From NCBI GenBank assembly GCA_008690995.1, contig VRMN01000030.1, positions 1 to 51,439 of the forward strand: DNA of 51,439 bases, given 5' to 3'. Below are positions 10,606 to 43,740 of the stretch, in pieces. The position numbers and the translations under genes were made by a program. Origin of the DNA: Porphyridium purpureum (Eukaryota; Rhodophyta; Bangiophyceae; Porphyridiales; Porphyridiaceae). How positions within the stretch are numbered: position 1 is the stretch's first letter; the number at the start of each line of letters is the position of its first letter. A model generated the notes under the pieces. That model was given only the letters and a program-made list of their open reading frames with translations, was not told the DNA's origin and did not search any database.

Positions 10606-10610
10606 AGGAC

Positions 10611-11494: not shown

Positions 11495-11551
11495 TAATTT
11501 GCAAATTGGTCGTGTGGGAGCGAGGAAGTGTGGGGTTGGGAGTGGGATAGG

Positions 11552-16428: not shown

Positions 16429-16487
16429 CGCTGGGTGGCTATCGGCCGTCGCTGCTCTCAAAAAAAATGTTCGAATAAAGATGGAGT

Positions 16488-20341: not shown

Positions 20342-20460
20342 TCTCCCCCCCTCTTGGCTCGACGTCTCGGCGAGACTCCAAACTAAGTTGCATTCTTGGC
20401 TCGAGGAACCCGCGCTCCGGGAGAAAACCTCTGCCTAGCAAACTTCTCACAGTACCCAAG

Positions 20461-25483: not shown

Positions 25484-27331
25484 TCTACCGTCGTGGCGCC
25501 GCTGACTTCGCTGTTGCAGAACGCAAAGTCGAAGAAGCAGCTGATCGAACTGGGAGATGAAGGCAAGTCGGCCTTCAAGAAGATTGTCGGGATGTTGACG
25601 GAAGCGCCGGTGTTGGCCTTGCCAGACCCTGAAAAGCCATTTGAGGTGTACACGGACCACTCTGAAGTCGCGGTGGGGGGATGGCTGGCACAGGAAGGCA
25701 GACCGGTCGCGTTTACGTCGAGGAAGCTGCTGGATCGAGAGACCAGGTACAGCAGCTATGAAGGAGAGCTCATGGCCGTCATTCACTGTCTGCGAGAGTT
25801 TCGACCTTATCTGTACGGGGCAAAGTTTGTGCTTCACACAGATCATGAGGCGTTGAAACATTTGATGACGCAGAAGGAGCTGAATGGCCGGCAAGCACGG
25901 TGGTTGGACTTTTTAGCCGAGTTTGACATCACGATCGACTACGTGAAGGGAAAGTCGAACGTGGTAGCCGATGCTTTGTCGAGGAAGCCAGAGCTGCACG
26001 CGCTAGAGTACCAGGTTCGATGTGAGGAATTTGGTGCGGGTTTCCAGGCATTCGTGGGTTCGTACTCGAGTGACCCGGACTTTGGTACTTTGATGGGGGA
26101 TTTACCGACCCACCAGGGTTTTCGAACCGAAGCTGGGCTCTTGTACTTGAGGAATCGCGTTTGCGTGCCGAGGAAGTTCAGAGAGCGTGTCATGCAACTC
26201 CACCACGATATCCCGACAGCAGGGCACCGTGGAGCCGACACAACGTATGCATCTTTGATAACTCGCTTCTACTGGCCAAAGATGAAGCGTGACGTGAGCC
26301 GTTTTGTGAAGACTTGTCACGCATGCCAAGTGACAAAGTCTGAGAATCGGTCGTTTGGAAAGCTGAAGCCCTTGTCGATCCCAGAAGGACCTTGGGTCGA
26401 CATTTCGATGGACTTCGTGACGGAGCTGCCTCGGAGCGAAGGCAGCTGTGATGCAATCATGACTGTGGTGGATCGCTATTCGAAGATGGCGCTGTTCATC
26501 CCGACGCGCAAGGACTTGACAGCAAAACGTTGTGCTGACTTGTTCGTGAAGCACGTCGTGAGCCGTTTCGGATACCCCAAGTCAATTGTATCGGACCGAG
26601 ATCCGCTGTTTACGTCCACGTTTTGGCAGCAGTTGAGCAAGCGGGTGGGCATGAAGTTGGCTATGTCTACCGCCAACCACCCGCAGACAGATGGCCAAAC
26701 TGAGCGAGTGAACCGCGTGATTCGGGAAATGCTCAAGCTGATGGCGACGAATAGTGGCTGGGTGCGAGACTTGCCGTTGTACGAGTTTGCGTACAACTCT
26801 GCACCGAGCAGTGCCACTGGATTCGCGCCGTTCAAAGTGGTATATGGAAGGGATCCTTGGTTTCCACCGAGCGAAGGGTGGAGACCTGCGCGCGACGGAC
26901 AGACGAAGGACATGGCGGAGCACTGGTTTCGCCTGTGCAAAGTCCATGAAGAAGTCCGCGACAATTTGATCGAAGCCCAAGGGAGAATGCAGAAGTTCTT
27001 CGATCGAAGCAAGGATGCCCGGGAGTTTCAAGTTGGTGATCAAGTGTTGGTCACGGCGCCGCAACTGCGGCCGAACAAGAGTGATTTGGCGGCACCAAAG
27101 TTTCTTGGTCCGGTGCCTGTCATTGAGAAGGTAAGCTCGCATGCTTACCGAGTGGTTTTGCCCGAGGGTGTGGCTTGTCATGATGTTTTTCCGATCCAAC
27201 ATCTGAAGCCATACTATGGACGCGAAGACTACATGGCAGGGGAAAATGATGAAGAAGTACCCGACGAAATGCCGGCGTCCGATTCTGAGCCAGACTTGTT
27301 GAAAATTATCGAAGAGTCTGACTCTGAATGA
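25484..27331 (+). CDS. Element A pol, part downstream of the C insertion
   Basis: After the right target duplication of C this part holds RNase H (EVYTDHSEVAVGGWL), the integrase HHCC finger, the integrase core (SMDFVTELP, SDRDPLF, DGQTERVNR) and the C-terminal module. It is close to the corresponding part of element C. Confidence 0.85.
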   Translation, partial: STVVAPLTSLLQNAKSKKQLIELGDEGKSAFKKIVGMLTEAPVLALPDPEKPFEVYTDHSEVAVGGWLAQEGRPVAFTSRKLLDRETRYSSYEGELMAVIHCLREFRPYLYGAKFVLHTDHEALKHLMTQKELNGRQARWLDFLAEFDITIDYVKGKSNVVADALSRKPELHALEYQVRCEEFGAGFQAFVGSYSSDPDFGTLMGDLPTHQGFRTEAGLLYLRNRVCVPRKFRERVMQLHHDIPTAGHRGADTTYASLITRFYWPKMKRDVSRFVKTCHACQVTKSENRSFGKLKPLSIPEGPWVDISMDFVTELPRSEGSCDAIMTVVDRYSKMALFIPTRKDLTAKRCADLFVKHVVSRFGYPKSIVSDRDPLFTSTFWQQLSKRVGMKLAMSTANHPQTDGQTERVNRVIREMLKLMATNSGWVRDLPLYEFAYNSAPSSATGFAPFKVVYGRDPWFPPSEGWRPARDGQTKDMAEHWFRLCKVHEEVRDNLIEAQGRMQKFFDRSKDAREFQVGDQVLVTAPQLRPNKSDLAAPKFLGPVPVIEKVSSHAYRVVLPEGVACHDVFPIQHLKPYYGREDYMAGENDEEVPDEMPASDSEPDLLKIIEESDSE

Positions 27332-27451
27332 CTTGGGTAATTGTGAGAAGTTTGCTAGGCAGAGGTTTTCTCCCGGAGCGCGGGTTCCTCGAGCCAAGAA
27401 TGCAACTTAGTTTGAAGTCTCGCCGAGACGTCGAGCCAAGAGGGGGGGAGA

Positions 27452-27746
27452 TGTTATCCGTTCGACCCCAGTCACCTAGAACGGTTCGGTTACTCCGAAA
27501 CCGGTAAGCCGTTAAACCGGTAGACCGTTTAACCGTTTCTAGAAGCTTCTAGAGGTTCCAGAACCTTCTAGACGCGCGCAGAAATGCCAATGGTTTGGAT
27601 TGTCATTTCTCTTGGCGCCTTGCTGTCCCTAGCGGAAGTAAGGGTATAAAAAGGCGACGCGCCTGCCCGGACTAGCCGGTCAGGTCTTGCTCGGAGACAG
27701 AAGAAGCAAGAAGAAGAGAGAGAATAAAGGCACAGCATTGGTAACA
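27452..27746 (+). repeat. 3' LTR of element A
   Basis: Preceded by the purine tract at about 27437-27450 and followed by AGGAC, the right target duplication. It differs from the 5' copy at a few positions, clustered mostly near the end of the LTR. Confidence 0.92.
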
Positions 27747-27751
27747 AGGAC

Positions 27752-29136
27752 TATCTATAGCCTCCACCTTTTTGCTTTTCAATCGGTATCAGGTTTGCTC
27801 TGCCTTGAGGCAAGCTACATAGAGCGACATAAATATGAAGCAACTGAGCTTTTTTACGGCTCTCACATTCACCCGAAGTCTGTCCAACATGTTCACGTTT
27901 CTTGCGCTCCTCTCAACAGGGATACGATAGTCGCATGCGAAGGAGAAGTCTAAATTTTCGGGTGCGGTTGGCACTCCCAAGTTATCAAGCTGTGTGCACC
28001 AAAAGTACAGATGAAATAGTTGACTGAGGTAAGCTTTGGCCCTCCCGAAGAGAAGAGGATGTCATCAGAACCCTCCAATTCGAGCCTTTTAGGTCCGTAA
28101 ATAACACTTGCAAGTTTTCTCTGTTTTCAGCAGTAAAAACAACTCATTCATTTGGTGTGTGTCCATGACAGTTCTCCAAAGCTGGTGCGACCGTTTTTGT
28201 CTGGTACGTGCGCTTATTTCTGGTCCCAAGTCTGGCGCGTTGCGCTGAAATTGGCTCGGCACATGCTGATTTGAGTTCTGTGCACACCAAAAACGCAGCA
28301 AAAGAAGGCCTTGCTTTGGGACATTTTCAAGCTTTGGGTGCGGTTTGCATTTTATTCTTGCGTCATTCTTATCGGGTCTCCATTTGCTTTCCGTTTTGAG
28401 GCTATTCAAATACCTTTGTACTAATGCAACGGAGCAAAATCTTAATGATCAGTTCGTGATCACCCGCATCATGCATTCCTCCGTAACTACGCCACAAATC
28501 ATGCTGGGCTCTTGTCCACTGAAAGACATTGCTGTGCTCCTGATGAAACCGCGCCGCGCGCTCGTGTCCATGCTCTATGACCCCTGGAATGTGTGTTTGA
28601 CTGCACTTTTTTTTAATCGCTTGGACGCTCGCACGGTGTGATGACATCGCTGTACGCCCCAACGGCGAGACCGGCAGCGGTTCGGTCCCTGTCTCCAGGG
28701 CGCCGCAACCGGTCGGGCTGGATGGAGACGCTCCGTTGGGGCAGCTAGTTCGCCCGACGGCGAAGACGCGGGAGGGGGCGCGACCCCTCACCTCCACTCG
28801 GGCGACCCCTCCGCAGGGCCGTGCCCGCACGGCAGAAGCGAAGTGCAATGCAGCGGCTCTATTTAAGCGCCAGCCTCCTCTCGCCTGGCGACTCGGCACC
28901 ACTTGGAGATAGGCTCAGAGGTAAGGTCTTTCGGTTTAGTAAAGAGAATGGCCTTCTACTACAATCCGCACCACGGCGCTGCCTCTACCTCTCATGACAC
29001 GGTCACCGGAATGTCGACCTTCTTCAATTTTATTCTAAAATTACCTATTTTCATAGAAAATGTGCAAAACAGCAGGAGTTTTTAATTGATTGTCACTGGC
29101 TGTATATTTCAACTTCCTGTACCCGGTCTACATGGA
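27752..29136. other. Intergenic stretch with a GC-rich block at its end
   Basis: No gene is supported. From about 28650 to 28900 the base composition turns very GC-rich. GCCCCAACGG at about 28656 is mirrored by CCGTTGGGGC at about 28733, giving a possible stem with a loop of about 70 bases. A TATTTAA motif follows near 28860. This block might be a promoter or a terminal repeat of an element; I cannot decide. Confidence 0.4.
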
Positions 29137-32100
29137 TCATTCTGTGCTGTCAGCGTGGTCACGGAATTGCCTCGGTGACCACGTCAATATTGACGGCACC
29201 TGGTACGTATTGAGCGGTCCCGTCACGGAGCCGTGGTTCGCATATGCGATGGCCTTCTTGGCAAGGTACCACGCGATCTTCATGTCGTCCGCCAGCCCTG
29301 GGTATCTTCTCATATGAGCAGCCACGCCTTGCCCTGTCCTGCACTCGTCGCACACGCAAAGCTCTCGCAGTGGCGGCGGTATTAACCCGGTGCCGCCTTC
29401 CTGCAGCGAGACCAAATGATCGCTTAGTGCCTGCCGCATGCGGAGCTTGGTTTCCGACACGAAGTAATCGCACCAGCAGCGAGCCCGCTGTCGCTCATAT
29501 GAAAGGATATCCTCCATCATGCGCTGACCCCGAGAATGCCGGATATACCCAGGTCGCCACGTACTGTTCATATGTTGGCACCAGGGCAAGTTCGGCGGGT
29601 GAGGCCAATCTGGGCTCGAGCCAATTGCCTGTACGACCGGTCGGATATCCCAGTACATGTTGTACTTGTTGACGATATCGTCCCACACAGGAAATCGGCG
29701 CGTGTCCAGAACGTCAAACGCAAGCTTGCGGGATATTCCATACGGCCTGCGTCGATTTCCAGGGAAGTACTCCAGCAACTCCTGGATATCCTCCACTTGC
29801 AAAGCCATCTGGCGAGCCCGGGCCCGGCGCATTTCGACGAGCATTATGCGCACAATATTGTGGCATATGCTGTGCGCGAAGTGGCGCCGCGCCTGGCCTG
29901 CTACCAGTTCGACGAGCGGTGGGTTCGTGGATATCCGCCACCTGCCCGAGCTTCTGGGTTCGGCGATGCAGCCGGCCAAAGCAGCAAAATCTGTGACATG
30001 CCATGTTAAAAGGCATCTCTCCATGTGGTCGACGAAAGCGTCCGAGAAGCCTTCCGTACAGATTGCACCGGCAAGATGGAAGGGCACGAATGCGTAATTT
30101 TGCTCGCATATGCGGCAGACGCCAACGGCCTTCCTGCACAATTCGCACATGCTGTAATTGCGCATGAACCTGTCATTCATATGGAAGTTCGACAGTTCTA
30201 CGCTGTACATGTTCGCCACCTTCAAGACATATGTCATGCGCAGGCAGCTGGTGCATGTCGGGTGCAGGGTCGCGCACTCGTAGATGAACTGGCCTGTCAC
30301 TGGAAATTGACAGATCAAGCAGTCTTGGATATCCACGTGTGCGGACGCCGGAAGTGCACGCACAGCTGCTGATATCGGACTTTGCACGATGTCCACATCG
30401 CTCCAACTTTGGCTGGCCGCTGGCAATGGCACATCCCCGTAAGTACCGCTTGCGAAGCTGGACGTGCGGTGCGTTTGCGGGGCAAAAGGCTCCTCAAAAC
30501 GGGTGCCATATGGCGTGCGCGGCTCGGACGGGCGTGGTAGCATCTCCGCTGCACATTCAAGGCCCCTCTGCAGCTGCCAGCCATCCACCCACAATCGCCT
30601 GAGCATGGCGATCCAGACACCATATGGCGCGGTCCCCCCATGCTCTATTGATCGCACATTAGATGTGCACTGGTGTCCGCGGTACGTATGTCTTCGGGTC
30701 ACGTTGCCAGATAACCATCGTACCCACACGCTGCTGCTCCCCCGATCCCAGGCAAAGGCAGTCTCTTGCGCCTTCCAATACTGGATTGCTGCCGTGTCGA
30801 GCTCGATGGATGCTGCGTGCGAGGCTGCATCAATATTGAGGTCTTCAGGAAGGCCAAAGTTGATCCTGCTACCTCCGTGCTCCATATGGAAGCTGCCAAA
30901 CACCTTGGCAATGGCCAAGTCCGTGTCCCTCGGTGTGGCATGCAGTTCGGGCAGGTCGTCCCACAGGTAGTCATGCGTCGCATGTGCGAATATTCGATTG
31001 TGCGCCTCTACCGTGTGGTCCCATAGCTCAATGCCCCATTCCAGGATGTTGCCCATGCCGACATCGAAGCGTGGTGCGAGTAATTCTGGAACGTGCGTTC
31101 CATCTGGATTTATCGCGTCCCGGAACGCATACAATTGCGTCCTCGCAATCGAAGGCCAAGCATACAGCTGAGCGCTCCGCAGCCGTGCTACACATATATC
31201 GACGGCGTGCCGCTCGGAGTAGCGTGGGACGGTATAAGTCTGCCCATCTGCAGAAATCTGCTGGGTCGGGACGTTTTCCATCCTGAAGGCTTCGCGCAGC
31301 TGGCGCCCATGATACTCTGTATGGTGTGGCGGCCAGCGAAACACCCTTTGCAGCTGTTCATCCATCTCGGTGGGCCCGTATGGGAAGACCGATCCCGAGT
31401 AGTCAGCGGACATGACACGGCTCCGAAGCTCTTGGACCAAGTTTCGCATATGCGCAAGAGCGCCATCTCTGCCAAACCATACGATAGCATACGTGCTGAT
31501 ATCGAGGAGCGTTGTCGCAAAGTCCATCATCACGCGCGCGGCGCGGATGCGTTCTAAGCGCGCCAAGCATCCCTTCGGGAACAATTGGTCAACGTCTCTT
31601 GCCCTGCGCGGACCTGTCGGCATCGTCTCCACATGGAACCTTGGGCCTTCGTGGACGAAAATGACGGCCGGGCATGCTTCTCTGTTGCACGGGAATGCAA
31701 TATTGCGCGGCAATTGAGGAAGCCGATAAGCGTTGCGAGTAAGCCTCAAGATGCGCTCCACCGCATCATCGTCAACGCGAACCACCAATGCAGCATCATA
31801 TGATAGCGCACCGTACGCAGCAGGCATAAGCGAGCGCAAATGGTAAAAATGAGCATATGCGCTGTTCCAGCCGTCACTTCGCGTCGGCTTTGGGCTGAGC
31901 TCATATGGGCCAACGGTTGTCAGGCGGCGAGGCCACTCGCATCTCTGCTTCAGCAGCCACGCCTCCAAGTCTAGACTCTCTTCAATGCGTGCACGGCTCG
32001 GATATCCGAGTGCACCTGCGTCAGTGCGCCTGCGCTTATGTCCATATGAAAGCTGGCGCGGAGCACTTTGGTCGGCAACCGCACCCGTGAATTCGTCATA

Positions 32101-32559
32101 TGACCACGCAAAGAGGCGTTCCGTGCGCTGCGCCGCCAGAAACATGCGATACAGTGCCACCTCCCGCTCTCCCATATGGGCTGAATAGTGATGCTGCCCA
32201 TATGGGGTTTCTGCGATCCAGTGGGCCACCGTGACGCCGCCACGTAGACACTTGAGAGCTCCAACAATATTGCTGAAGTACATCAAAAAGGCATGGCTCA
32301 CAGCGATGCCCAGGTGCGCCTCGCGGGCTCCGATATCGGCGTGAGACATCGGGTCCGACGCGGCCGTCTCGTCACGGCGCAAGGCTTCCGTGCGCCGCAC
32401 CCGAGAGACCTGCGGAAGATCGGGCGGCAGCAGCGGCCCGAACCACATCCTTTGTCCATATGGAGTGGCGTCCAAGTCATCCTGGGTGATATCTCCGGAC
32501 GCGTACAAGTCCTCCAGCTCCCATGCCTCCGCCCGGTATGAACCGAGCGAGCGTTCCAT
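29137..32559 (-). CDS. Large RING-HC finger protein of unknown family (possible ubiquitin ligase)
   Basis: The first ATG is at 32559 (1140 residues); the frame is open for 46 more codons upstream without an ATG. A perfect RING-HC pattern lies at about residues 745-805: CLIC, 11 residues, C-x3-H-x2-C-x2-C (CATLHPTCTSC), about 32 residues, then CELC. Further Cys pairs (CRIC) follow. In the family, RING-HC domains recruit ubiquitin-conjugating enzymes. The remaining 1000 residues are not recognised; there is no signal peptide or membrane segment. The tripeptide Pro-Tyr-Gly occurs six times because CCATATGG-type palindromes fall in that reading frame. The gene is divergent from family X copy 1. 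Function as ligase is inferred from the RING only. Confidence 0.7.
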   Translation of the reverse strand: MERSLGSYRAEAWELEDLYASGDITQDDLDATPYGQRMWFGPLLPPDLPQVSRVRRTEALRRDETAASDPMSHADIGAREAHLGIAVSHAFLMYFSNIVGALKCLRGGVTVAHWIAETPYGQHHYSAHMGEREVALYRMFLAAQRTERLFAWSYDEFTGAVADQSAPRQLSYGHKRRRTDAGALGYPSRARIEESLDLEAWLLKQRCEWPRRLTTVGPYELSPKPTRSDGWNSAYAHFYHLRSLMPAAYGALSYDAALVVRVDDDAVERILRLTRNAYRLPQLPRNIAFPCNREACPAVIFVHEGPRFHVETMPTGPRRARDVDQLFPKGCLARLERIRAARVMMDFATTLLDISTYAIVWFGRDGALAHMRNLVQELRSRVMSADYSGSVFPYGPTEMDEQLQRVFRWPPHHTEYHGRQLREAFRMENVPTQQISADGQTYTVPRYSERHAVDICVARLRSAQLYAWPSIARTQLYAFRDAINPDGTHVPELLAPRFDVGMGNILEWGIELWDHTVEAHNRIFAHATHDYLWDDLPELHATPRDTDLAIAKVFGSFHMEHGGSRINFGLPEDLNIDAASHAASIELDTAAIQYWKAQETAFAWDRGSSSVWVRWLSGNVTRRHTYRGHQCTSNVRSIEHGGTAPYGVWIAMLRRLWVDGWQLQRGLECAAEMLPRPSEPRTPYGTRFEEPFAPQTHRTSSFASGTYGDVPLPAASQSWSDVDIVQSPISAAVRALPASAHVDIQDCLICQFPVTGQFIYECATLHPTCTSCLRMTYVLKVANMYSVELSNFHMNDRFMRNYSMCELCRKAVGVCRICEQNYAFVPFHLAGAICTEGFSDAFVDHMERCLLTWHVTDFAALAGCIAEPRSSGRWRISTNPPLVELVAGQARRHFAHSICHNIVRIMLVEMRRARARQMALQVEDIQELLEYFPGNRRRPYGISRKLAFDVLDTRRFPVWDDIVNKYNMYWDIRPVVQAIGSSPDWPHPPNLPWCQHMNSTWRPGYIRHSRGQRMMEDILSYERQRARCWCDYFVSETKLRMRQALSDHLVSLQEGGTGLIPPPLRELCVCDECRTGQGVAAHMRRYPGLADDMKIAWYLAKKAIAYANHGSVTGPLNTYQVPSILTWSPRQFRDHADSTE

Positions 32560-32841
32560 ATGGACAAGTGCTGTCGTCAGCCGGCAAATCCCCGTCTCCG
32601 CAGAACCTGCCTCTGTCGCAATATCGCCGCTCCCCTTTTTCTCCGCGAGCAAGCGACCCCTTCGCAACTTGACGGCATGTGATCCCTTCCCCAACACCCC
32701 ACACGGGTCACGTCCAAGAGGTCACGTTTTGATATGAAAATAGCTCTATTTTTCCAATCTAGACTTGTCTTTTGCGCGCGCTCTCGCCAAGGGGGAGAAG
32801 AGAGATAGGCGAACTTGTGCGTCTCGAAGGTGGCGCGCCAT
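32560..32841. promoter_or_regulatory. Divergent promoter region between RING protein and family X copy 1
   Basis: The two divergent start ATGs each lie within a CATATG palindrome (32557-32562 and 32839-32844), 282 bp apart. The middle is AT-richer (about 32725-32760). Promoter role is inferred from gene layout. Confidence 0.45.
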
Positions 32842-34476
32842 ATGGCAGACTTGGGAAGGGGTGCGCGTGTCCGTGGCGCGGGTGTCAATATTAGAATGAG
32901 TCGCAGCGCTGAGATATCGTCGCGCAGCGCAGTGGCCCGGCGGCTGCGGGGGGATGAGGACGCGCCGGCGGAGGCTGTGGTCACACCAGCCTTGTCTTCC
33001 ACAGTCGATGGCTCCAATTTTGGGCGGCGGCGCCGCGGGAAAGACAGAGCGAAGAAGCGAGCCAGAAGAGGCTCCGCGACCGATATCTTTGTGCGCAATA
33101 TTGTGAATCGTGGGCTGTTGCCTGCTGTTGTAAAGGTCGACGACGCGGGTACGGGCTGTATGGACTTCTGGCGCAACTTCGAGCGCCTTGCCGCTACATA
33201 TGATCATCGCGAGCCGTACACGCCAGCGGCATCGCCGGGCTTGACAATGTTTACCACATGGTACACTGACATTGGGTTTGTGGGTCCTCCGTCCATGATG
33301 GAAGACGAAGCACTTACTACTTTGATGCAGGAATCGCTGGAAGGTGCCAAAAATGGGCTCCGTAGGAATATTCGCATGTCGCTCGCGGCAGCTTTCAAGG
33401 CCCACTTGGGAACCGCGCGTCGCGTCGTCGACTGCATAACGCGAGACGGGACGGTTGAGGAACCGGTCAAGTCGTTTGCCTGTCGGCCATTATTAAGTAC
33501 TAGACTGTACAGAAAGTTCAGAACGCCAGTATCACCATATGGTACAAGTCTAGTTCCACTGGATGACAGCATCACGCCAAACGAGGAGAAGGAAGCTCTC
33601 GATCTCGGGATCACTTGGATGACTGCGATCTACTGCGCAATCACGCAGGTCCTGGGAAAGTATAGCCGATCAATATTGGCGCTTGAACGGGATCCATACT
33701 ACAGTGTCCTTTGTCGTGAGCTGAAAATCGATGAAGCGGACTCCATATGGCTACGTCCGGATAGGGACGGTTCCGAATCTGACAAGGCTTGGTCGTCGAC
33801 ACTGTGGTCAAACTCGCTCATGCTGTCACTATTGGACCTGCGCTCGGGTGCGAAGGATGGAAAAGACTATCCGTTTGCTGATATCGGACTCAACTTGGAA
33901 GGGCTCTGTATGCTGCAGATGCACTCCCTCGTTGTCTCTTCGGCTCAGGCGCGGGCACCATCGGTATCGAAAGTGTGTCAAGCACGTGATGACCCCGCAT
34001 CGGAGTGGCAAGACCGATCGGAGAAAAGTGATGACATGTCTGGAGATAATGAAGACGAATGGAATATTCCAGTACACTGGGAAGCATATACGTCTTGGGC
34101 TGATGAAAAGCTGCCTGAGAAGGGCTTCATGGGCATATTGAAGTGTATCCAGATATGCCGACGCTGGTTTCGCTCGGATATCCATTCCATACAGCTGGAC
34201 GAAGAGGGCCGAATTTGTGTCCGTGACAGCGATATCGCAATCAACGACGGAGACCTACGCTTGTGTCGAGCCATCCGATATCGTGCAACTCAATTGCGCC
34301 TCATCAATTGCCCGCGCGCGTCTGTTAGTCGTTTGCCCCGACCTTCACATGCTCCAACGGTGAACTCAATGAATGAAAGCGACGATATCGAACAAGCTAT
34401 GGGCGCACCATCCGCGGCATCTGCACCGTCGTTCCTGGACTACATGGAATATTCCGGTTCGGACACGAAACCTTGA
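32842..34476 (+). CDS. Family X protein, copy 1 (unknown function)
   Basis: From ATG 32842 the protein has 544 residues. A basic N-terminus (RRRRGKDRAKKRARRG, about 60-76) suggests nuclear location. I do not recognise the family, but it is related to the 758-residue protein at 48755-51031. Matching stretches in the same order are VRNIVNRGLLPA with VRGLVRRGIVPA, the MQESLEGAKNGLRRNIRMSLAAAF block with LHASYNGARCVALTRIRRGMVLAA, and DIGLNLEGLCMLQMHSLVV with TIGVNLEVLAMAQLRSIFI. A C-terminal ILKCIQICRRWFRSDI...EEGR...DLRLCRAI also matches. No catalytic motif is obvious. The gene lies inside the palindrome field and its start codon is within a CATATG. Confidence 0.7.
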   Translation: MADLGRGARVRGAGVNIRMSRSAEISSRSAVARRLRGDEDAPAEAVVTPALSSTVDGSNFGRRRRGKDRAKKRARRGSATDIFVRNIVNRGLLPAVVKVDDAGTGCMDFWRNFERLAATYDHREPYTPAASPGLTMFTTWYTDIGFVGPPSMMEDEALTTLMQESLEGAKNGLRRNIRMSLAAAFKAHLGTARRVVDCITRDGTVEEPVKSFACRPLLSTRLYRKFRTPVSPYGTSLVPLDDSITPNEEKEALDLGITWMTAIYCAITQVLGKYSRSILALERDPYYSVLCRELKIDEADSIWLRPDRDGSESDKAWSSTLWSNSLMLSLLDLRSGAKDGKDYPFADIGLNLEGLCMLQMHSLVVSSAQARAPSVSKVCQARDDPASEWQDRSEKSDDMSGDNEDEWNIPVHWEAYTSWADEKLPEKGFMGILKCIQICRRWFRSDIHSIQLDEEGRICVRDSDIAINDGDLRLCRAIRYRATQLRLINCPRASVSRLPRPSHAPTVNSMNESDDIEQAMGAPSAASAPSFLDYMEYSGSDTKP

Positions 34477-34662
34477 ACATAGTGTACTGCTTATAAATGG
34501 AGTTTATTGCTCGCCTTGCGCAGACAAAAAGTCATCAACGGGTCTTTGCGCCATTGAGTCTGATATCAGCATACTGTTTCGCCATGGCATACGCCGACGC
34601 CAACTCTTTCGATGGCTTTGTGCGCCCTTTCGGCGTACCATCTGCAAGGGTAAAATCGTGCT

Positions 34663-35502
34663 TCATATGTGTAGGTGCTCCATGAGGACCCACACAAAAG
34701 ATGCGGCGCTTTTCCCAAGGAAACGGACAACGATGCAACCCTTCCTCAATGTCATCGCATCTTCGTCGGCTTTCTTGCGGCTTTCTTCAGAGGTATCTCG
34801 CACGCACCCTTTCATAAGAACTTCAGGGCCAAGTCCGTCAATACTGAGAACCACCACGGCCGGCCACCATGGCCATCCGGCGTATCTTGCCAGAACCAGT
34901 TCATATGGGTAAGGTCTGTCATGCGGGGCTATGGAACGCAGCCATGTTTTTGCGATGCCGCATCTACGAGTGTAAATGTCGCGGATATTCCCGGCTACTG
35001 CGTCCGATATCGGGGCGGCTCTCGTGAACTGTGCAAGGCTCACGTCACCAATTACCGACTTTGGTGTCTCAATATCGCTGACATCCAGCGAGTCAACGGC
35101 GACGCTCCCGTGTATCCGAGTCTCCAATATTGTGACCTTCCGGGACAATGCTGCTACCCTCATCTCAAGCTCCTTGATCCGGGCACGGTCTTCTATCACG
35201 TCAGTGGCGAACATCAGTACGCGGAGCAGTCGATGGACAAGACCGTCGTCGTCACTGACCGCCATACCATCGCTCGCACGACCCAAGTCGTGCAAGTGCC
35301 GGATATCCGCAATGTCAATTGACTTTGCACTATCATGTTCACGTTGCATCTGGGCTGCGCGAGCCAAATGGGATGGCACCGCGCGTGGACTCACTGGCTC
35401 CACACCTGGTTCGACGCCGGTACGCTTGCGCTTTGAACCCCGCGCGTCATTCGTTTTTCTCGTCGGTTCGCTTGCTGTCTCCATAAGGACTGGCATTTTC
35501 AT
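34663..35502 (-). CDS. PWWP-domain protein, copy 1
   Basis: The 279-residue protein starts at ATG 35502. A basic N-terminal part (GSKRKRTG) is followed by a coiled-coil-like stretch (RIKELEMRVAALSRKVTIL, about 105-130). A C-terminal PWWP domain (about 200-279) carries the eponymous motif in ELVLARYAGWPWWPAVVVL and ends CIVVRFLGKSAASFVWV. In the family, PWWP domains read methylated histone lysines and bind DNA. The stop codon TGA is part of a CATATG palindrome (34664-34669). It is convergent with family X copy 1, 186 bases apart. It is homologous to the protein at 36614-38134. Confidence 0.75.
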   Translation of the reverse strand: MKMPVLMETASEPTRKTNDARGSKRKRTGVEPGVEPVSPRAVPSHLARAAQMQREHDSAKSIDIADIRHLHDLGRASDGMAVSDDDGLVHRLLRVLMFATDVIEDRARIKELEMRVAALSRKVTILETRIHGSVAVDSLDVSDIETPKSVIGDVSLAQFTRAAPISDAVAGNIRDIYTRRCGIAKTWLRSIAPHDRPYPYELVLARYAGWPWWPAVVVLSIDGLGPEVLMKGCVRDTSEESRKKADEDAMTLRKGCIVVRFLGKSAASFVWVLMEHLHI

Positions 35503-36613
35503 CCATAAACCACCTCCCTCTCCTTCGCTGGGAGCTCGAAGTAGTGTTGGGGAACGGTGTGACTTTGTATCGCTTCGTTACGCCCGGCGTAAACAATTTA
35601 CCGGACGCCTTCGAGGCCCTGCATGTGCAAAGGCAAACCCGTGGAGCCGCGCGCTCATGGGTGGGCTGGAGACACCGAGGCAGAGCGGGACGAGCTACGG
35701 AAGGGATCGCATTGTTGGTCTTCAAAGTGAGCGAAGGGGGCAAAATTCATCGACATGCTTTCCTCTACACATATGTTTCTACTCGCAAGAGACGACACGG
35801 ATCAACATTGATTGGATGCGCTAAACCTTAATGTACAAGGTAATGTGTTATAAACCTACAATATCAGGGTTACTCAAGGGTTACGATGAATTGTTGACGG
35901 TACAGTTGAAGTCACTTCAGCAAATGTATTTAATTATGTATTAAATCCGTTGCAATGACATTAAAAAAGTTGAGAGCGTATCATGAAGACTATCGGCCGA
36001 ATCGGTTATCATCATATTATGGTTTGAGCACGTGCGACCAATGCTTGCATTAAAAGTGTTCTTGGCAATAATACCGATGTCAGGGCTACATTACCCAGCA
36101 TCTTTTCACATTTGTACTGAGCTGTGCAAAATCTGGAGCAAGCTGGAATCTGAAGGGTTGAATTCGTTTGCCGCACCTGTCTTTTTAGCCTGATGCTTGA
36201 AATATTGCGAGGTCGTATGCTTCGTGCGTTCAAACGTCTCACTCTGCTGACGCGTGTCGTTCATCGTAACAGCACAGTTGACCGCACCAAGTAAGCTGCA
36301 TGCGAAGGCCTTTTATCTCCACGGACGCGCAGTGTCTTCGCGTTCGCGCCGCAGACTGACAGTAGCAAACGTTCGCAGCACTTTATGGCACGCCTTATCG
36401 GATACCGATAGCCGGTGGCCCTGAGGGTATAGGTTCTAGTCTTGAGTCTTCATTCGTTTGTCGTTTGGCTTTCAACAGGTCCACCAGTTCAAACGCATCT
36501 CAAAATTGGTATCACATTCGCACGTGCTGCAGCGTGTGTTTGGGTGTGTCGTTGTGTGTGTGTGCGCGCGCGAGAGGAGAGCAACGAGGTATTGTTTTGG
36601 GGCTGTTCGTACG
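35503..36613. other. Intergenic stretch between the two divergent PWWP genes
   Basis: No gene is supported. The palindrome field fades out here (last site ACATATGT near 35771). The part 35830-36010 is markedly AT-rich. It may hold the promoters of both PWWP genes. Confidence 0.45.
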
Positions 36614-38134
36614 ATGAATCATTATTCCTGTCCTCCCGCGCGCCAAACGTCTGGTTCGGGTGATATTGAGCTCGATGCGCGTGCGACACGTGAAGCTGGT
36701 CAACACATAGACACTTTAGATGGGGCCGAACGCAACGGACAATCTGAGGATGAGGCCGGATGGTACGCACGATCCATGGCGGTAGCCGGATGGTATGGTG
36801 AGTGTAACTATGACGGTCGATGCATCGAGGGTCCCGTAAACTTCGATCAGCATCATCTGATCCGACAAGGTGTCGGAGGAAGGCATGGTCATGTTGAAAT
36901 GGACCGGCGTGTGTTTCCGCATGGCGAGGTCGAAAGGTGTCACGAAGGTTCATTTGGTGGAGAACAAAGGGATCCTCCCTTGCATGGCATTAGGCATCGT
37001 GAATTTTATTCGCCATATGCCGGAGGCCATCAACACAGACTACAGGAGTCCGCTCGACACGTAGAGAACATACGGGCGTCAACATTGCGTGAATATGATA
37101 GACGTGGCGTGGCGGGTTGGCGAGGAGAAAGGTATCAGCCCGAGCACCTCGGTAATGGCTTACCTGATACTGAGCGACAGCATGGTGGCATTGATGCGAC
37201 GTTACGTCGTGATATGGCGTCCCCGCTGTCAGGGTCGTCTCGAAGTGTGCGTCATCTTGGTGCTGGTCAGGTAGAGCCCAACGCACAGAATCTCCTGCGA
37301 GCTTTAACACAAGCAGTGGCTGCGCTGGACTACACTCGAGAATTGCATGATGTGCTCCGACGATTACGTGAGCTCGAACGACAAAACGAAGTGTATGCAA
37401 GGGAACTACAAGCAATGAATGTAAGGCTGGACGAACGAGGCCGTCCGGGTTTTCGTCATTCTCCTGTACTCCATGGTTCTAAACGGGGCCAGGTGAGCGA
37501 GGAAAGCGACGGCTCAGACGATGATGAACAAACTAATTTGAAGGTGAGGAAGCTTGTGCGTGATGAAGTGGCAAACGACGCATTGTCTGATTCGGACCGC
37601 GTTGGGGAACGTAATGTGGTACACGTGAGGTCAGAACGTCGCCTGATTGACTTAAGCCGACAAACGTACAATCGACGTGTTTCGTCTGTGCGAGCGTGGT
37701 TGATTCGTTGTGCCCAGGCCGTCGGCATTTCGTATCCGGAGCTCGTTTTCGCCAAAGCCGGCAATCATCCGTTCTGGCCTGGTATTGTGATTCTAGATTC
37801 CGGTCATGTTTCAAGTGAATTTGATCAGGTATTTATTGTCCGGACGGCCAGTGCGAAACAAGAAACACGCGTGCTCGTGCGCTTCTTTGTCCCTTTAGGT
37901 CAAGATCAGTCGTACGCGTGGGTTGCGATGCACGAGTCGTGTATCAGATTTAGTCGCAAACTATATGTCGAAAGCGGGTTGAGAGTTTCGGCGCATGCGC
38001 AGGTCCAGAACTATCGTGACCCGTATCCAGGAGCGCGTGTCAAGGTGGACCTCAAGGCGTCCGTGGATCAGGCCAAACGCTATATTGTTGCTAAGAATGC
38101 ACGAGCCACTGTGGAAATCGGGACGGTTGTGTGA
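36614..38134 (+). CDS. PWWP-like domain protein, copy 2
   Basis: From ATG 36614 the protein has 506 residues. The first 200 residues are rich in His, Arg and Gly with no known domain. A coiled coil (LRRLRELERQNEVYARELQA, about 230-275) precedes an acidic patch (SEESDGSDDDEQ). The C-terminal part, about 350-450, is related to the PWWP domain of copy 1: TYNRRVSSVRAWLIRCAQ with IYTRRCGIAKTWLRSIAP, YPELVFAKAGNHPFWPGIVIL with the PWWP core (here PFWP), and VLVRFFVPLG...YAWVAMHE. It extends about 55 residues past the domain. It is longer at the N-terminus than copy 1 and lacks the ATAT palindromes. Confidence 0.7.
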   Translation: MNHYSCPPARQTSGSGDIELDARATREAGQHIDTLDGAERNGQSEDEAGWYARSMAVAGWYGECNYDGRCIEGPVNFDQHHLIRQGVGGRHGHVEMDRRVFPHGEVERCHEGSFGGEQRDPPLHGIRHREFYSPYAGGHQHRLQESARHVENIRASTLREYDRRGVAGWRGERYQPEHLGNGLPDTERQHGGIDATLRRDMASPLSGSSRSVRHLGAGQVEPNAQNLLRALTQAVAALDYTRELHDVLRRLRELERQNEVYARELQAMNVRLDERGRPGFRHSPVLHGSKRGQVSEESDGSDDDEQTNLKVRKLVRDEVANDALSDSDRVGERNVVHVRSERRLIDLSRQTYNRRVSSVRAWLIRCAQAVGISYPELVFAKAGNHPFWPGIVILDSGHVSSEFDQVFIVRTASAKQETRVLVRFFVPLGQDQSYAWVAMHESCIRFSRKLYVESGLRVSAHAQVQNYRDPYPGARVKVDLKASVDQAKRYIVAKNARATVEIGTVV

Positions 38135-39219
38135 CCGAAAGGTGCATGTCTTTCTGCACAGATAGTTGGCTGTTCCTGCGTGCGTCGGGAGGTTTCAGTC
38201 TGTCTCTGATTGTAGCATTCGCCTTCCGGCCTGCTTTTGTATCCGTGAACAGATCGCATCATATCCAGTGCGCTTTGACTGAATCTGCTTGGCGGATTAC
38301 GAACCAGCTCGGCTGGGCAGACTTTCGATGTTTACCTTAACATGAGCGTCAGAACGCATGGCCGTGTAATCTGAATGGTTGTGCTCGACCGTGCCAACAA
38401 GTGCCAGTGCTAAAGCACCGCATATTGGATAGGCTTCAAAGATTCTGAATTCGAATTCTAGTGATCTCTTACACATTCGCCGAGTACGTCCCTGTGACGA
38501 GAGATCCTTGTTTGCTTGGGTTTTGAAATGCTTGCCTAGCACAGGGATGGCAGGTGTTGCAAATAGTTTCGTTGAACATCGGGAGTTGGGGTGCGATTCC
38601 TAACTGTCCGTTGTGCTTCCGATCGATCGCTCTGTGCGCGCGCGCAATTCCGTAGAGGTCTGTACGCCACGTCATGCCCTTTAAACGCAAGCGCACTGCA
38701 ATCAAGAGTAGTCTTCAGCTTCGTGCCGTGCACGGAAAGCAGAATTGAATGTCCAAGTCTCAAATCCACAAGCTCATAGAGGCCGGAATGCATTATGACC
38801 GCTGGGTGCCGTGTCTTTTGTGAGCTACGTGAAGCCCCACCGGGCCTGAAATTGCATGCTTAGATGCGCGCATGTACATGAGGTTCATTGCGGTCATGCG
38901 TCAGACTTGCCAGTCATCATACTTTGTTACAATGCCTCTTTACTGGGATCGATTATTCCAAATTCTTGTCATGCACCTTGGTCCCGCAGACTTTGGACGC
39001 AAGTAACACAACATATGGCATGTTCGTCTGTCTGCTTGCCATTCTAAGCGCATCCATGCACTGTGCGAGACCCGTACATTTGTTTCATAGAGGCTGATCT
39101 GTATTTCTCACATGTAAATGTTGTTTGGCGTCCCCTCGTTTTCTTCACACGAGGGTATCGATCGATCCAGACTGCCCTATGCATGGAAACCCGTCGTTGC
39201 ACGTTCTCGCGATGAATAC
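38135..39219. other. Intergenic stretch, nothing recognised
   Basis: Convergent space between PWWP copy 2 and the transposase gene. Only short frames with no recognisable product; no repeat or RNA gene was seen by eye. Confidence 0.45.
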
Positions 39220-42200
39220 CTACGCGTACGTTTCAACACCTTCGCATAAATTAGGGCTTACGATGTAGTACTTTTGTTCCAGAGGCAGACATGTGTGGCT
39301 TTGTGATACATCCATGAATGCGGTGACCTTCTGAATGATAGACTCCACAGATATACAGATCAGGAACCTGCGCTTCTGCGAATCGATACCATAATCATTG
39401 CACGCATCATGAAGTGTATGTTCCCTGTTGATTTCATGCGCTCTCGTGCGCCTCTTGCTATGCATGAACACTTGCGCGATCTGCTGGCACGGACAGACGG
39501 CACCCGCGTTTCGTTCTCGGCAGAACGATTCTGTTTCCAATGGACAGATGAACGCAACTCCACGTGTTCCACTCAGGTTGGTGAGCAGGACGAGTTCGCC
39601 AAACCGTGGAGTATCGTTTGAGCCGTTCTCAGAGACATACTGAATGAAATCGTATCGCGGACGCCCCATATACGTAGGCGAGCAGACAAAAATGTCGTGC
39701 AGAGCCTCTGTACGTCCAGCCGAAACGTCCTCTTCGTAACCAGCTGCCTGATTGTTTGCGTCTGCATCAAGCAGAGGTGCTATCTGATCCATAACTTGGG
39801 TTCGACATCCTTCTTTGAACTTCCGGAGTACGAAAGCCTGCGTCAACATGATTGGAGCCCTGCGTGAGCGCTCCAAGAAATCTCGCACGCCCAAATGCAC
39901 CCGAGGAGACGCATGCTGCAGTGCGTCGAGAATATAGCTGGCAAATGCAACGCGGTCACGGGTACATATCGTACCTCGCGAAAGACTCTGAATGAAGCAA
40001 CCGTCCGGACGTGTATCGAAATTGGATGTCACATATGAGAACACACCCTCCACATCAAGTGATAGGTGGCTAGTCAGCGTGTTTGATGCAGCATTTGTGC
40101 GTCGTTGTGTTTTGTCTAGAACCGTGCGGATGTCGCCAGTCAAGAAGAAAACGTAGTGTTCGCGCACGCTCGGCGTACATCCTGTATTGTTTGCCTGCTG
40201 GGCCGAACTGCTTGGTTCTCCTGTGCATTCACCGCGTAGCCCATTTCCGGTCTTTTCTTTTCGACGCTCAAGCAGAGAAATCGCATATGAAAACGCTTCA
40301 TCGGTTTCGCAAGTTTGCAGTATTGTTTTATGCGCAAGATCACGGCGCACATTCAGGTTTCGAGCCGGAAGGCGATCAAAGATGCGGCGCAGGTACTTCA
40401 TCAGAGACTCTCCGCCACAGACGTCAAATAAACGCTGACGTCCGAGCAACTGCACCATTGTGGCCAAGTGGAGAATCGCATGGTACTTCGGTCGATCACC
40501 GACAGCCCTTGCAAATTGCGGACCCTCCTGCCGGATGCTGTTCATACACTTGCTAACCCTGGATAAGAAAAACTCTGCATTGTACATGTCCATTTTACCG
40601 GGGCACTTCAAGTACAGGTAACGATACGCGCCTAAGCTGGCAACGCAGACCCCAATCCAGCCTGACAGCACGCGCCCGTCCATTGAGCAACGTGTGTGTC
40701 CAGACGCAAGGATAACTAGAACACGTAACAAGATGCTGAGAGAATACTTGTTCTCGACAATTTTTCCGACCTCATCCGTCACTGGTACGGCGCGCATTGG
40801 AATTTGGAATTGGTTGTGTCCTCTTGTTGTGAGATCTTGCTGCATTCGAACAGCCTCAATTTTAATCCATCGACCAGCCGCCGAGTCCAACATGGAGTGT
40901 GTTACCTTTTCAGACCGGTTGCGTGCGGTGTTTTCGGCCTGGCGCACGCTCACAGCACGTACTCGAGACGTCTGAGCCGAAGACGCGTGTATAAGGCTAT
41001 CATCCGACCAGTCATGCTCTTCCTCCTGTTCGCACGCGGGCCCAACCTGCTTCGCTTTGTGACACAACAACAGCATTTCCAAGCCCACGGTTACCGAGTC
41101 GCGGAACAGCAGCTTCTTGAAAGCGTGCATTGCGTCTGCACACGTAAAGAGAAAAATGCCCCAAGGGTGGAACGCGTCGAGACCCTTGAACAAAGGAGAA
41201 CCCGGTCTGTCTACGGACATTTCATCAAGTGCAGCAATGTCATTTACCTCAATGGCGTGGATGGTCTCTGCTTCGAAGCGAAACCCGGAGCGAAGTCCGT
41301 TTAAACCGTTGTACAACGTCCAGTAGTCTTGGTCTGAGTTCCGAGGCCGCTTTCGACAGATAGTCTGGCCAGCCAGATCCGGGCGGTCTCTCCGATCATG
41401 CGCTCTCTCCAGCTCTTGCAGTTGCTGGCTAGACTGATTTTCGACAGGCCTTGCTTCCTGCCGTTGCTCCCGCTGACCGCCACCAGCGGCTTCGCACTGC
41501 TGACATGGCATTTTTTGGTCCTTCGGTCTTGAAAGACGTGTGAAAGACAGACGCGCAACCATTGGCATATCCATGCCAAGATTGTAGATCGTGGGGATGC
41601 ACGTCCACCTCTTACCGTGCGCGGACAGCTCAAAAAAGAAGGGCATCCCAGCGTGCCATGCACCGCGCAACCAGTCACCGAAAAGAAAGGCAAAGATGCC
41701 GTGGTACATGGACTTGCGGAACTCTTTCATAACGTTCTGAGGCATGTCTCTGCCTGTAGCCCTCGCCTGTGTTGAGCTCTGCATCCGTATACTGTCCAAT
41801 GTCTGCCATTCGTTCAAGGTCCCATCCGGCATGCATGCTACAGTCATGGGAAGACGATGATCTCCATTGTGTTCAAACTTCATTCTATGAATGATAGAAA
41901 TTGAAATTGGCGTCAGTTCATGCAGCGCATTTTTGTGCATATGCGCACCGTCTGCGTAAATGGCCACTGGGATGATAAGTGGGGGCGGGTTGCGCTCGTC
42001 TCTAAAATATGAATGCTCGAGGACGCGCGAGTAAACATGTCGCAGGTACCAAGCATCTTGAGCGTGGCGGAAGGATTCGCTCTCGGCGGGCGCAGAGCCT
42101 TCGAAAGGTGAACTGGCAACGCTTTCGTTCGCACCTGCCGTCTGCATTCCCGGTCCCTGCATTTGCCCTGCCACTGCGCTGTCAGTTCCGGCAAAGTCGT

Positions 42201-43740
42201 GAAGAAAATCCTCAACCGGACGATCCTTGAACTCTTGCATTTTACGTATTGTCTCCTCCACGTGTGCACGTGCCAGCCTATGGCGGGCGCCTCTTGCGGT
42301 CCTTTCCGTGCCACGCTGGTCATATGCTTCTTGAGCAGATACCCATGCAGGTGGCTGGTTCGCGCCGAGTTCGCAATTTAGACGCGTGATTTGGAATGCG
42401 TCTGCCCCGTACATCTGCATGATATGTTTCACGTCCCGTATAACCAGAGAGGTTGCGTCACGATATGCGATTTCGGTTGTGAAGCCTTCTGGTCGGTATC
42501 TTTTTAGATTGCGCCCGAAAGGGATTCGTGTTTGTTGGATCGCAATCCCTGGAATGAAAATCTTCTGCCGATGAAGGGCCGTGCTGATGTTGGCACTGAA
42601 AAGAGCTCTACATGCCTCTGTGATGTTTTCCGCGCTCTCTCTGCCGATGCGTGCGCGGTCCGTGTTCGCTGCCGGAATCGTTGCTCGCCCACCCTGTGCG
42701 TGGACTTCTATCTGGCTCGTTGTCCGACCAACTCCTCTGTAATGTAAAACGACTGCAAGTATTTGCTGCATCGTTTTGAACAAGGTATTATGTACATGAC
42801 GTGAGATGAAACCACTTGACTGGCGCAGACACTGCTCAATCTCGATACGAAATTTCGTGAGCTCAAGCTCAAGAAAGCTTAGATCTGCATTCCCGCAGAT
42901 TTGTTCTGTATCAGCCGCAGTCATATTTGCAGCAAAATTACCTTGACGAGCACTATCAGGAATACTTTCTGTCCACGCCAGCTCTATCTCCCGGCAGAAA
43001 TTGTCTGCGCTCTGCCTTCGAAGAACATGACGCTCCGCATAAGTCGTTGCATCCGGCACCGAGGCAAGTGCTCGTTCAAACTCCGTCGTCCGCTGATTCG
43101 CAATGGCGTTAAATAAGCGTATGTCGTCGCTCATTGCTTCTTCAGGTGCCTGAAATTCGTCTTCAGATTCGGGCAGCTCGGGCAAGTAATCCTCTTCGTC
43201 AGAATTAGGACGGGAATTTTCTTGTGGATACTCGAATATTTCCATTGTGTCGTCAGATCGTGCAGCGAAAGTGTTGTCTGCATCCATTGTTCTTCGTTCG
43301 TTTGTACTACCAATTCGAGCTACCGGTCCGGTCATACAACTTGGACCATGCCCTGTTCTCTGTTGGAATGTATCTGCGTCCCGTAGAAGCGCACTACGGG
43401 CGCCTGATAAGGGTGCTGGAGCGGAGCCATCGTCTGATAGTGTAGCTTCATGGGGGCATAGACCAGATTCGTGCCGTTCCGCCACAATAGATTCATATGG
43501 CCCATCGTGTGAACCCCTTATTCCGCAATGTACACAAGCGACACGCTGTGGTTCCGTGACCAACGCAAGCGCTGCTTCACCCGACCGTGATGTCGAGCTG
43601 GGTGCTGGCAGCGCTGAATGTACGTCGCCGCGTCTTGACCGTCCCGCTTCATGTACGTCTCTTGTATGTTGAGCATATTTTCGGTACCTCTGGGGCCGCT
43701 TTTCTTTCGAGTGCTTGTGCGTGTACTTGGTTTTCGGCAT
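39220..43740 (-). CDS. DDE transposase, CACTA/Plavaka (CMC)-like, full-length frame
   Basis: The 1506-residue protein starts at ATG 43740. A basic N-terminus, a Cys/His cluster (CVHCGIRG...CPHE, about 72-96) and an acidic stretch (about 165-205) precede a helical region. The catalytic core resembles TNP2/Plavaka transposases: IPVAIYADGAHMHK with the first Asp near 598, IPTIYNLGMDMP, a zinc-type CQQC near 745, FTCADAMHAF with the second Asp near 868, and PKYHAILHLA...CGGESLMKYLRR with a candidate Glu near 1110. The C-terminal PRYDFIQYV...RFGELVLL (about 1363-1385) is also typical of Plavaka-like proteins. Such enzymes cut and paste DNA transposons. The frame is uninterrupted. Terminal inverted repeats were not found by eye. 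A KDZ relation is the main alternative. Confidence 0.65.
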   Translation of the reverse strand: MPKTKYTHKHSKEKRPQRYRKYAQHTRDVHEAGRSRRGDVHSALPAPSSTSRSGEAALALVTEPQRVACVHCGIRGSHDGPYESIVAERHESGLCPHEATLSDDGSAPAPLSGARSALLRDADTFQQRTGHGPSCMTGPVARIGSTNERRTMDADNTFAARSDDTMEIFEYPQENSRPNSDEEDYLPELPESEDEFQAPEEAMSDDIRLFNAIANQRTTEFERALASVPDATTYAERHVLRRQSADNFCREIELAWTESIPDSARQGNFAANMTAADTEQICGNADLSFLELELTKFRIEIEQCLRQSSGFISRHVHNTLFKTMQQILAVVLHYRGVGRTTSQIEVHAQGGRATIPAANTDRARIGRESAENITEACRALFSANISTALHRQKIFIPGIAIQQTRIPFGRNLKRYRPEGFTTEIAYRDATSLVIRDVKHIMQMYGADAFQITRLNCELGANQPPAWVSAQEAYDQRGTERTARGARHRLARAHVEETIRKMQEFKDRPVEDFLHDFAGTDSAVAGQMQGPGMQTAGANESVASSPFEGSAPAESESFRHAQDAWYLRHVYSRVLEHSYFRDERNPPPLIIPVAIYADGAHMHKNALHELTPISISIIHRMKFEHNGDHRLPMTVACMPDGTLNEWQTLDSIRMQSSTQARATGRDMPQNVMKEFRKSMYHGIFAFLFGDWLRGAWHAGMPFFFELSAHGKRWTCIPTIYNLGMDMPMVARLSFTRLSRPKDQKMPCQQCEAAGGGQREQRQEARPVENQSSQQLQELERAHDRRDRPDLAGQTICRKRPRNSDQDYWTLYNGLNGLRSGFRFEAETIHAIEVNDIAALDEMSVDRPGSPLFKGLDAFHPWGIFLFTCADAMHAFKKLLFRDSVTVGLEMLLLCHKAKQVGPACEQEEEHDWSDDSLIHASSAQTSRVRAVSVRQAENTARNRSEKVTHSMLDSAAGRWIKIEAVRMQQDLTTRGHNQFQIPMRAVPVTDEVGKIVENKYSLSILLRVLVILASGHTRCSMDGRVLSGWIGVCVASLGAYRYLYLKCPGKMDMYNAEFFLSRVSKCMNSIRQEGPQFARAVGDRPKYHAILHLATMVQLLGRQRLFDVCGGESLMKYLRRIFDRLPARNLNVRRDLAHKTILQTCETDEAFSYAISLLERRKEKTGNGLRGECTGEPSSSAQQANNTGCTPSVREHYVFFLTGDIRTVLDKTQRRTNAASNTLTSHLSLDVEGVFSYVTSNFDTRPDGCFIQSLSRGTICTRDRVAFASYILDALQHASPRVHLGVRDFLERSRRAPIMLTQAFVLRKFKEGCRTQVMDQIAPLLDADANNQAAGYEEDVSAGRTEALHDIFVCSPTYMGRPRYDFIQYVSENGSNDTPRFGELVLLTNLSGTRGVAFICPLETESFCRERNAGAVCPCQQIAQVFMHSKRRTRAHEINREHTLHDACNDYGIDSQKRRFLICISVESIIQKVTAFMDVSQSHTCLPLEQKYYIVSPNLCEGVETYA

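Follow-up and report, generated by a model that had tools for sequence, protein, structure and literature searches.

A field of ATAT-centred palindromes with free but self-complementary flanks in a mobile element family of Porphyridium purpureum

The locus and its palindrome field

The analysed window is a stretch of 51,439 nucleotides from the red alga Porphyridium purpureum (contig VRMN01000030.1, positions 1 to 51,439). At 29103..35805 it holds a copy, with no strand assigned, of a mobile element termed F1, which includes three open reading frames (ORFs). ORF A (29137..32559, minus strand; 1140 aa, or 1186 aa from GTG) belongs to no recognised family and shows a RING-like C/H pattern by eye only. 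ORF B (32842..34476, plus strand; 544 aa) has no Pfam family, and relics of its relatives lie on contigs C3 and C30. ORF C (34663..35502, minus strand; 279 aa) has a PWWP-like domain (E = 4.1e-05; 24.4 bits, below the cut-off of 25.6). The F1 copy is covered by a field of NNNATATNNN palindromes at 29187..35776, likewise without strand. An earlier note on this DNA had counted about 73 ATATs there, about 62, 48 and 31 of them palindromic at one, two and three or more flanking pairs; the recount returned exactly 73, of which 62, 48 and 31 were palindromic, against approximately 18, 5 and 1 expected with random flanks. When the counts were cut at the region edges, 61, 47 and 30 remained.

The remaining 44.9 kb of the window contained 72 ATATs, of which 14, 4 and 1 were palindromic at the same thresholds. 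ATAT alone stood out among all 16 palindromic 4-mer centres counted in 29187-35776, none of the other 15 coming near its excess. The edges of the field were sharp: the ATAT density rose from 0-3 per kb over the preceding 20 kb to 15 in 29001-30000, and on the right the last site with at least two pairs was found at 35303, save one at 35771. Nine control stretches of 6.9-14.9 kb each, representing few host stretches, held 0, 0, 0, 0, 1, 0, 1, 0 and 0 full sites (all three flank pairs complementary around the core) versus 31 in the 6.7-kb field, and one of the two full control sites fell in a stretch with an F1 relic (L027). Longer repeats were rejected as the source of the field, as no match longer than 28 nt was listed by a repeat search of 27000-37500, for which the listing covered 20 of 29 families of direct repeats and 25 of 31 pairs of inverted repeats. 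Rfam and tRNA scans of the window gave no match.

The searched genome comprised 22.16 Mb in 46 contigs, by which the copies are named. Five copies and one diverged fragment were recovered with ORF A, whereas ORFs B and C were found in four of the five copies (C12, C1, C8 and C13), along with distant pieces. The palindrome field was present in all five F1 copies (window, C1, C8, C11 and C13). What had been described as a three-gene locus does contain three ORFs; judged from its copies, it is one truncated copy of a longer, multi-copy, DNA-transposon-like element, and it lacks a transposase-like gene found in the C8 copy. The C8, C11 and C13 copies share about 210 bp beyond the left end of the window copy and differ outside. 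The window and C1 copies differ at only 5 positions and also have their flank in common; they therefore look more like a single segment that was duplicated than like separate insertions, and may represent a recent segmental duplicate or a second haplotype. Across 28281-35805 the window and C1 were 99.9-100% identical, flank included, and a related retrotransposon was inserted in C1 only. The C11 copy is interrupted by a gypsy-type retrotransposon, a relative of those in the window at 10600-27750, where several gypsy-type ORFs with chromo or SH3-like tails and common repeats of about 300 bp were observed. The C13 copy carries a separate insertion of about 255 bp. Eight alignments between copies (0.1-6.0 kb) had 0-4 gap positions each.

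The longest copy, C8, runs on into an ORF of 1121 aa. A genome search with this ORF gave 63 matches, mostly at 25-48% identity outside F1, including a 1506-aa ORF at 39220-43740 of the window. Five paralogs align at 25-30% identity to the first, with D, H and E positions invariant by eye. The 1121-aa product is called transposase-like from these shared positions and its dispersal; no database names it. Subterminal, inverted TTAATACTC units were located near both ends of the C8 copy. Inspected by eye, the diverged fragment on C20 retains a single whole F1 palindrome and parts of others, so the field appears to be older than the split between F1 and C20. Close pairs of SSATATSS words occurred at 46 places genome-wide, versus 1 for the reversed control; 16 of the 46 fell in the five F1 copies, the other 30 being scattered, with a few repeated or low-complexity words. 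The ATAT field is thus largely confined to the F1 family.

The protein-database search identified no relative of the transposase-like protein, ORF A or the five-paralog alignment among the 8000, 8000 and 7999 candidates scored as having the most words in common, ORFs B and C having been left out. No relative was found by phage DNA search, viral-contig scan or in PDB. Apart from the PWWP-like match of ORF C, everything that Pfam returned was at chance level, with nothing convincing for the transposase-like paralogs. CACTA/EnSpm and Plavaka transposons are large multi-gene DNA elements with subterminal repeats. F1 resembles them in these respects and in the conserved D, H and E positions, seen by eye, of its transposase-like protein, but that protein matched nothing in Pfam, PDB or the protein database at the thresholds applied. 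To our knowledge, internal palindrome fields have not been reported from this superfamily.

The field and protein coding

Chance and codon usage were rejected as the cause of the field by 1000 synonymous-codon shuffles per ORF and by flank permutation, both of which treat sites as independent. ORF A contains 41 ATATs, of which 37, 30 and 22 are palindromic at one, two and three pairs, compared to shuffle means of 18.9 and 10.0, 4.4 and 2.2; the real values were never reached. The same was true of ORF B. The short ORF C was weaker, its 7 ATATs being matched in 54 of 1000 shuffles and its 2 full sites in none. Two host genes and the neighbouring transposase-like gene of a related element, F2, showed no excess of ATAT palindromes over their synonymous shuffles. 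The assertion that the protein code cannot explain the field thus stood for ORFs A and B, and a similar palindromic fraction was seen neither in their shuffles nor in the two host genes.

The field had also been described as indifferent to strand, frame and coding status. This was largely so: sites with at least two of three pairs occurred at 8.8 per kb in ORFs (52 sites) and 6.2 per kb outside (5 sites in 805 bp). Coding does leave some trace: fewer ATATs stood in the phase in which ATA is read as a codon (8 of 41 in ORF A, 8 of 43 in the C8 transposase-like ORF). Full sites did not avoid the invariant transposase positions, touching 4 of 56 invariant codons versus 40 of 648 codons in the same span.

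A second field with a GTAC core

Scanning of loci with transposase-like paralogs revealed GTAC-centred palindromes on C3 and a full field at C1:121000-130000. These belong to family F3 (C1:124k, C3 and C11:273k), for which, as for the families F5 and F6 considered below, the counts rest on partial reads. Within the 9 kb on C1, 102 GTACs were counted; palindromes numbered 60, 44 and 37 at one, two and three pairs but just 8 at four. The field in the F3 transposase-like ORF was not reached in any of 1000 synonymous shuffles. Judging from these sequences, F3 is a distant paralog family of F1 with the same kind of field around GTAC. The search for other loci with the signal, as advised in the earlier note, yielded four further F1 copies and this second family.

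A paired-GTAC pattern was also present at C1:117.5-119.5k, C3:193-195k and C11:265-270k. Genome-wide it occurred at 104 places, at least 11 of them in F3 copies among the 50 of 104 listed. GTAC pairs as such are not rare in the genome, because the reversed control word gave more places (312), and we therefore do not claim that the field is confined to F3. In an AT-rich subterminal stretch of F3, 17 GTACs had flank complementarity at or below chance. AT-rich stretches with many non-palindromic GTACs lie beside the F3 transposase-like ORF at L034 6450-7100 and L029 2500-3200, where in L029 these words form tandem repeats. Further GTAC palindromes were noted at L031 1-2000 (C30:262000-264000), where 12 of the 47 GTACs of a 10-kb locus had at least two pairs, 8 of them before position 2000; a further F3-like element may have its edge here. 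At L030 1-2500, tandem repeats were observed whose copies are offset by about 126 bp and approximately 75% identical.

Anatomy of the 10-bp unit

Each flanking pair was tested by permuting flanks among sites, the F1 set consisting of the window copy and the C8 stretch. For 114 ATATs of F1, 94, 83 and 68 were complementary at pairs 1, 2 and 3, compared to 36, 33 and 30 after permutation; for 79 GTACs of F3, the values were 53, 52 and 50 versus 24, 20 and 28. Pairs 4-8 were at chance in both families. Complementarity above chance at pairs 1-3 only defines a unit of 3+4+3 bp, in which a fixed self-complementary core (ATAT in F1, GTAC in F3) stands between free self-complementary triplets. Both the fall-off after the third pair and the 10-bp NNNATATNNN unit with free flanks, proposed in the earlier note, were borne out. 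The triplets were diverse (29 different in 48 full F1 sites, 16 in 37 full F3 sites), and mildly biased: T seldom precedes ATAT, A seldom precedes GTAC, and the outer pair of F3 favours G or C. Full flanks also surrounded 26 of 301 one-mismatch cores in F1 (led by ACAT/ATGT) and 31 of 288 in F3 (led by GCAC/GTGC), versus approximately 1-2% for remoter cores, which fits either decay or tolerance of the core.

ATATs without a complementary pair were near background (0.69 versus 0.63 per kb), in contrast to full sites (4.75 versus 0.03). The corresponding densities for GTAC were 2.17 versus 1.59 and 5.74 versus 0.10 per kb. Since core words without complementary flanks are near background, the excess is made up of additional sites with pairs, chiefly whole units, and not of old core words made symmetric.

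The anatomy of the unit bears on two further explanations. The sites could be targets of a symmetric DNA methylation mark labelling the element, which would account for a palindromic target on both strands and for adenine in both cores. A methyltransferase would not need free self-complementary flanks, and the diversity of the triplets departs from the single recognition sequence of a methyltransferase or restriction site field. Moreover, the ATAT core has an ApT and the GTAC core none, and none of the four F1 products was recognised by Pfam as a methyltransferase. We consider such a mark improbable. Alternatively, the sites could function at the RNA level, each forming a stem-loop whose tetraloop is specific, and some RNA-binding proteins do recognise a specific loop on an unspecific stem. 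Among 51 one-mismatch sites read in the sense orientation, 14 G-T and 16 A-C mismatches were counted, revealing neither the preference for G-U over A-C nor the wobble tolerance expected of RNA stem-loops. In 30 of the 51 the mismatch was a transition from a pair, which agrees with the transition excess of 144 to 64 between F1 copies. An RNA function, which leaves the sites outside ORFs and the self-complementary cores unexplained, is disfavoured and very unlikely, and the idea of RNA tags put forward earlier is weakened accordingly.

Spacing and turnover of sites

The mean spacing of units was 140-150 bp. Compared with 5000 simulations, F3 full sites less than 50 bp apart were absent (0 versus 7.8 simulated; reached in 0 of 5000). 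For F1 sites with at least two pairs in the C8 copy, 9 such spacings were found versus 18.9 (7 of 5000), and for the window copy 5 versus 12.4 (16 of 5000). Of four control words, one was random and three were clustered. The sites thus tend to keep about 50 bp or more apart. No clear helical, codon or nucleosome periodicity was detected; period 3 in F1 had p ~0.05, unadjusted.

Two F3 copies, 76.5% identical (23.5% apart) over 2232 aligned positions, carried 10 and 9 full sites, of which 4 were common, versus about 0.14 expected by chance, and 6 and 5 were private. Full sites were identical over all ten bases in the other copy in 4 of 10 and 4 of 9 cases, versus a background of 9% (p = 0.009 and 0.006). 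In the same pair, non-palindromic GTACs were untouched in 2 of 16 and 2 of 9 cases, and other palindromes in 1 of 11 (8 bases compared). The F3 field is therefore maintained even as single sites come and go. Amino-acid changes affected 16 of 44 codons at F3 sites specific to one copy and 195 of 736 codons overall, as raw counts.

Sites in F1 were shown to differ between copies by base substitution. An ATAT present in some copies was absent from others at 15 places; 12 of these differed by one substitution and 3 (window 30179, 30431 and 31479) by two to four within ten bases. These data bear on a directed mutational process, in which a family-specific nuclease would act at the core and repair would copy three bases of one flank onto the other. 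Such a process would yield exact complementarity, a sharp limit and a family-specific core, and the three multi-base differences would suit it. The single substitutions at the other 12 places do not, nor do the nearly gap-free alignments, the tendency of sites to avoid one another and an excess made of whole new units. We regard this process as unlikely; the related proposal that the palindromes are scars of repeated insertion is contradicted by the same near absence of gaps, the single substitutions and the whole-unit excess.

Two-sided compensatory changes were enriched in F3, affecting 5 of 96 pair cells versus 28 of 6230 (p = 1e-4) and, when restricted to pairs complementary in both copies, 5 of 51 versus 28 of 940 (p = 0.02). 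Such changes would be expected if base-pairing were read rather than the duplex, that is, if a 3-bp stem with a family-specific 4-nt loop (a cruciform or hairpin) were recognised or refolded by an element enzyme, much as palindromic ends are refolded by telomere resolvases. Only pairing needs flanks that are free yet exactly complementary, and the sharp three-pair limit and fixed core would also follow. On the other hand, single-strand folding energies of ten hand-picked sites were only 0 to -1 kcal/mol, so a hairpin would have to be stabilised by a protein; self-complementarity, shown by both cores, is not required of a loop; and no single-strand stage is known for the F1 element. We hold base-pairing in place of duplex reading to be rather unlikely. 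Targets of the telomere resolvase TelA are similar in that function depends on a self-complementary stretch folding back into hairpins, but they are sequence-specific bacterial chromosome-end sites, whereas F1 and F3 have dozens of sites inside a genome-integrated element (PMC3558466).

Related families

The related element F2 (36458..43740, no strand assigned; window 36-44 kb) served as a control. It encodes a PWWP-like ORF (36458-38134, plus strand) and the 1506-aa transposase-like ORF (39220-43740, minus strand), and has no palindrome field. F2, taken as 35850-44000, lies immediately next to the F1 copy, and a GGGTTACTC motif at the left edge of F2 resembles the F1 left end. Families F5 and F6 are parts of loci L023 and L024, respectively. 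Mild palindrome excesses were observed in F5 and F6 around TCGA or TGCA (TCGA in F5). F6 (L024 2400-10000; C13:694400-701999) contained 50 non-palindromic ATCCGA words in 7.6 kb on both strands, a density of 6.6 per kb versus 0.2-0.9 in ten other stretches, or roughly ten times higher. The sample thus comprised five families (F1, F2, F3, F5 and F6), of which three are dense in a word of their own, F1 and F3 as palindromes; F4 (C39:31.6-33.6k, C40 and C19) and F7 lay outside it.

Discussion

The reading that we favour, with a probability of about 0.42, is that the palindromes form a selected, family-specific array of DNA recognition sites laid over F1, its genes included, and read as a self-address. 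Flanks that must be complementary yet are free in their letters suggest base-pairing, strict dyad symmetry or copying from a template. A maintained DNA array is preferred among these because copying leaves the extra cores and the spacing unexplained, a role in RNA is disfavoured and lone hairpins are weak. An element-linked factor needing exact dyad symmetry would read the array, either through the symmetry of the duplex or through protein-held pairing. Its most likely effect would be to keep the chromatin of the element open against host silencing, by analogy with the VANC proteins of VANDAL elements. With units 140-150 bp apart on average and close pairs scarce, the array fits a local action in which a second nearby site brings little gain. 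PWWP-like proteins are encoded by both F1 and F2; these predicted domains and the RING-like pattern seen by eye in ORF A fit a chromatin role and prove nothing. Of the three meanings offered in the earlier note, that of a symmetric DNA-binding factor or mark fits best.

Several observations weigh against a self-address. The chromatin role is drawn from analogy only, and a homodimer reading bases locally leaves the matching of the free flanks unexplained. The spacing test used distances picked once the spacings had been inspected, and avoidance was weak for full F1 sites (1 versus 5.3 in the window copy, 87 of 5000; 4 versus 6.7 in C8, 786 of 5000). The coefficient of variation of spacing in the window copy was ordinary (607-1202 of 5000 simulations). 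Near-cognate F3 cores alone showed no compensatory change (0 of 396), and substitutions inside F1 sites were fewer only when the sites were defined in the window copy (1.5% versus 3.1%), not in C8 (3.0% versus 3.1%). F2 and F5 had no clear field or clearly enriched word, and the field is therefore not needed by every element of this kind. The F6 word had neither palindromic flanks nor spacing avoidance (12 below 50 bp versus 11.9 simulated).

Among known systems, the array is most readily compared with VANDAL21 of Arabidopsis, where VANC21 binds dense family-specific motifs and removes silencing (PMC5735166; PMC10398659). Both have short family-specific DNA words that are crowded into one transposon family and scarce in other elements; the motifs likewise differ for a related VANC protein, and the motif field changes between related copies (PMC5735166). 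VANC motifs are, however, fixed words (YAGTATTAY) in mainly non-coding tandem repeats of one orientation (PMC5735166), an arrangement not found in the F1 and F3 fields, where flanks are free but self-complementary and the sites lie mostly in ORFs, are not tandem and have few close pairs. The DNA uptake sequences of Pasteurellaceae and Neisseriaceae are also dense self-identifying words, occur in reading frames without orientation bias and are thought to accumulate by molecular drive; unlike the F1 and F3 units, they are fixed, non-palindromic and spread across a bacterial genome rather than one transposon family (PMC1939737). Among the titles and abstract openings listed by literature searches, none described such a palindrome field.

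More generally, and as a tentative proposal somewhat short of even odds, this group of transposons may mark its own DNA with a family-specific 4-bp core in a 10-bp unit, whose outer pairs can be nearly anything so long as they are self-complementary. Such units would recur about once per 140-150 bp, over genes as well, and be kept by turnover, and a reader sensing symmetry or pairing would let each family recognise itself. We found no precedent for a tag of this kind, and the proposed category would rest on the form of the site rather than on a proven function.

Recognition sites are normally words, whereas the flanks in F1 and F3 conserve complementarity with little regard to the letters. They do so around two unlike cores, in transposon families only distantly related to each other; the units have an exact length and seldom lie close together. 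If the units are read in the cell, the recognition principle would lie beyond those known to us for duplex-binding proteins. The fields would then be a clear example of selection at the DNA level superimposed on coding sequence for proteins, and the question of how transposons tell their own copies from the host would become testable.

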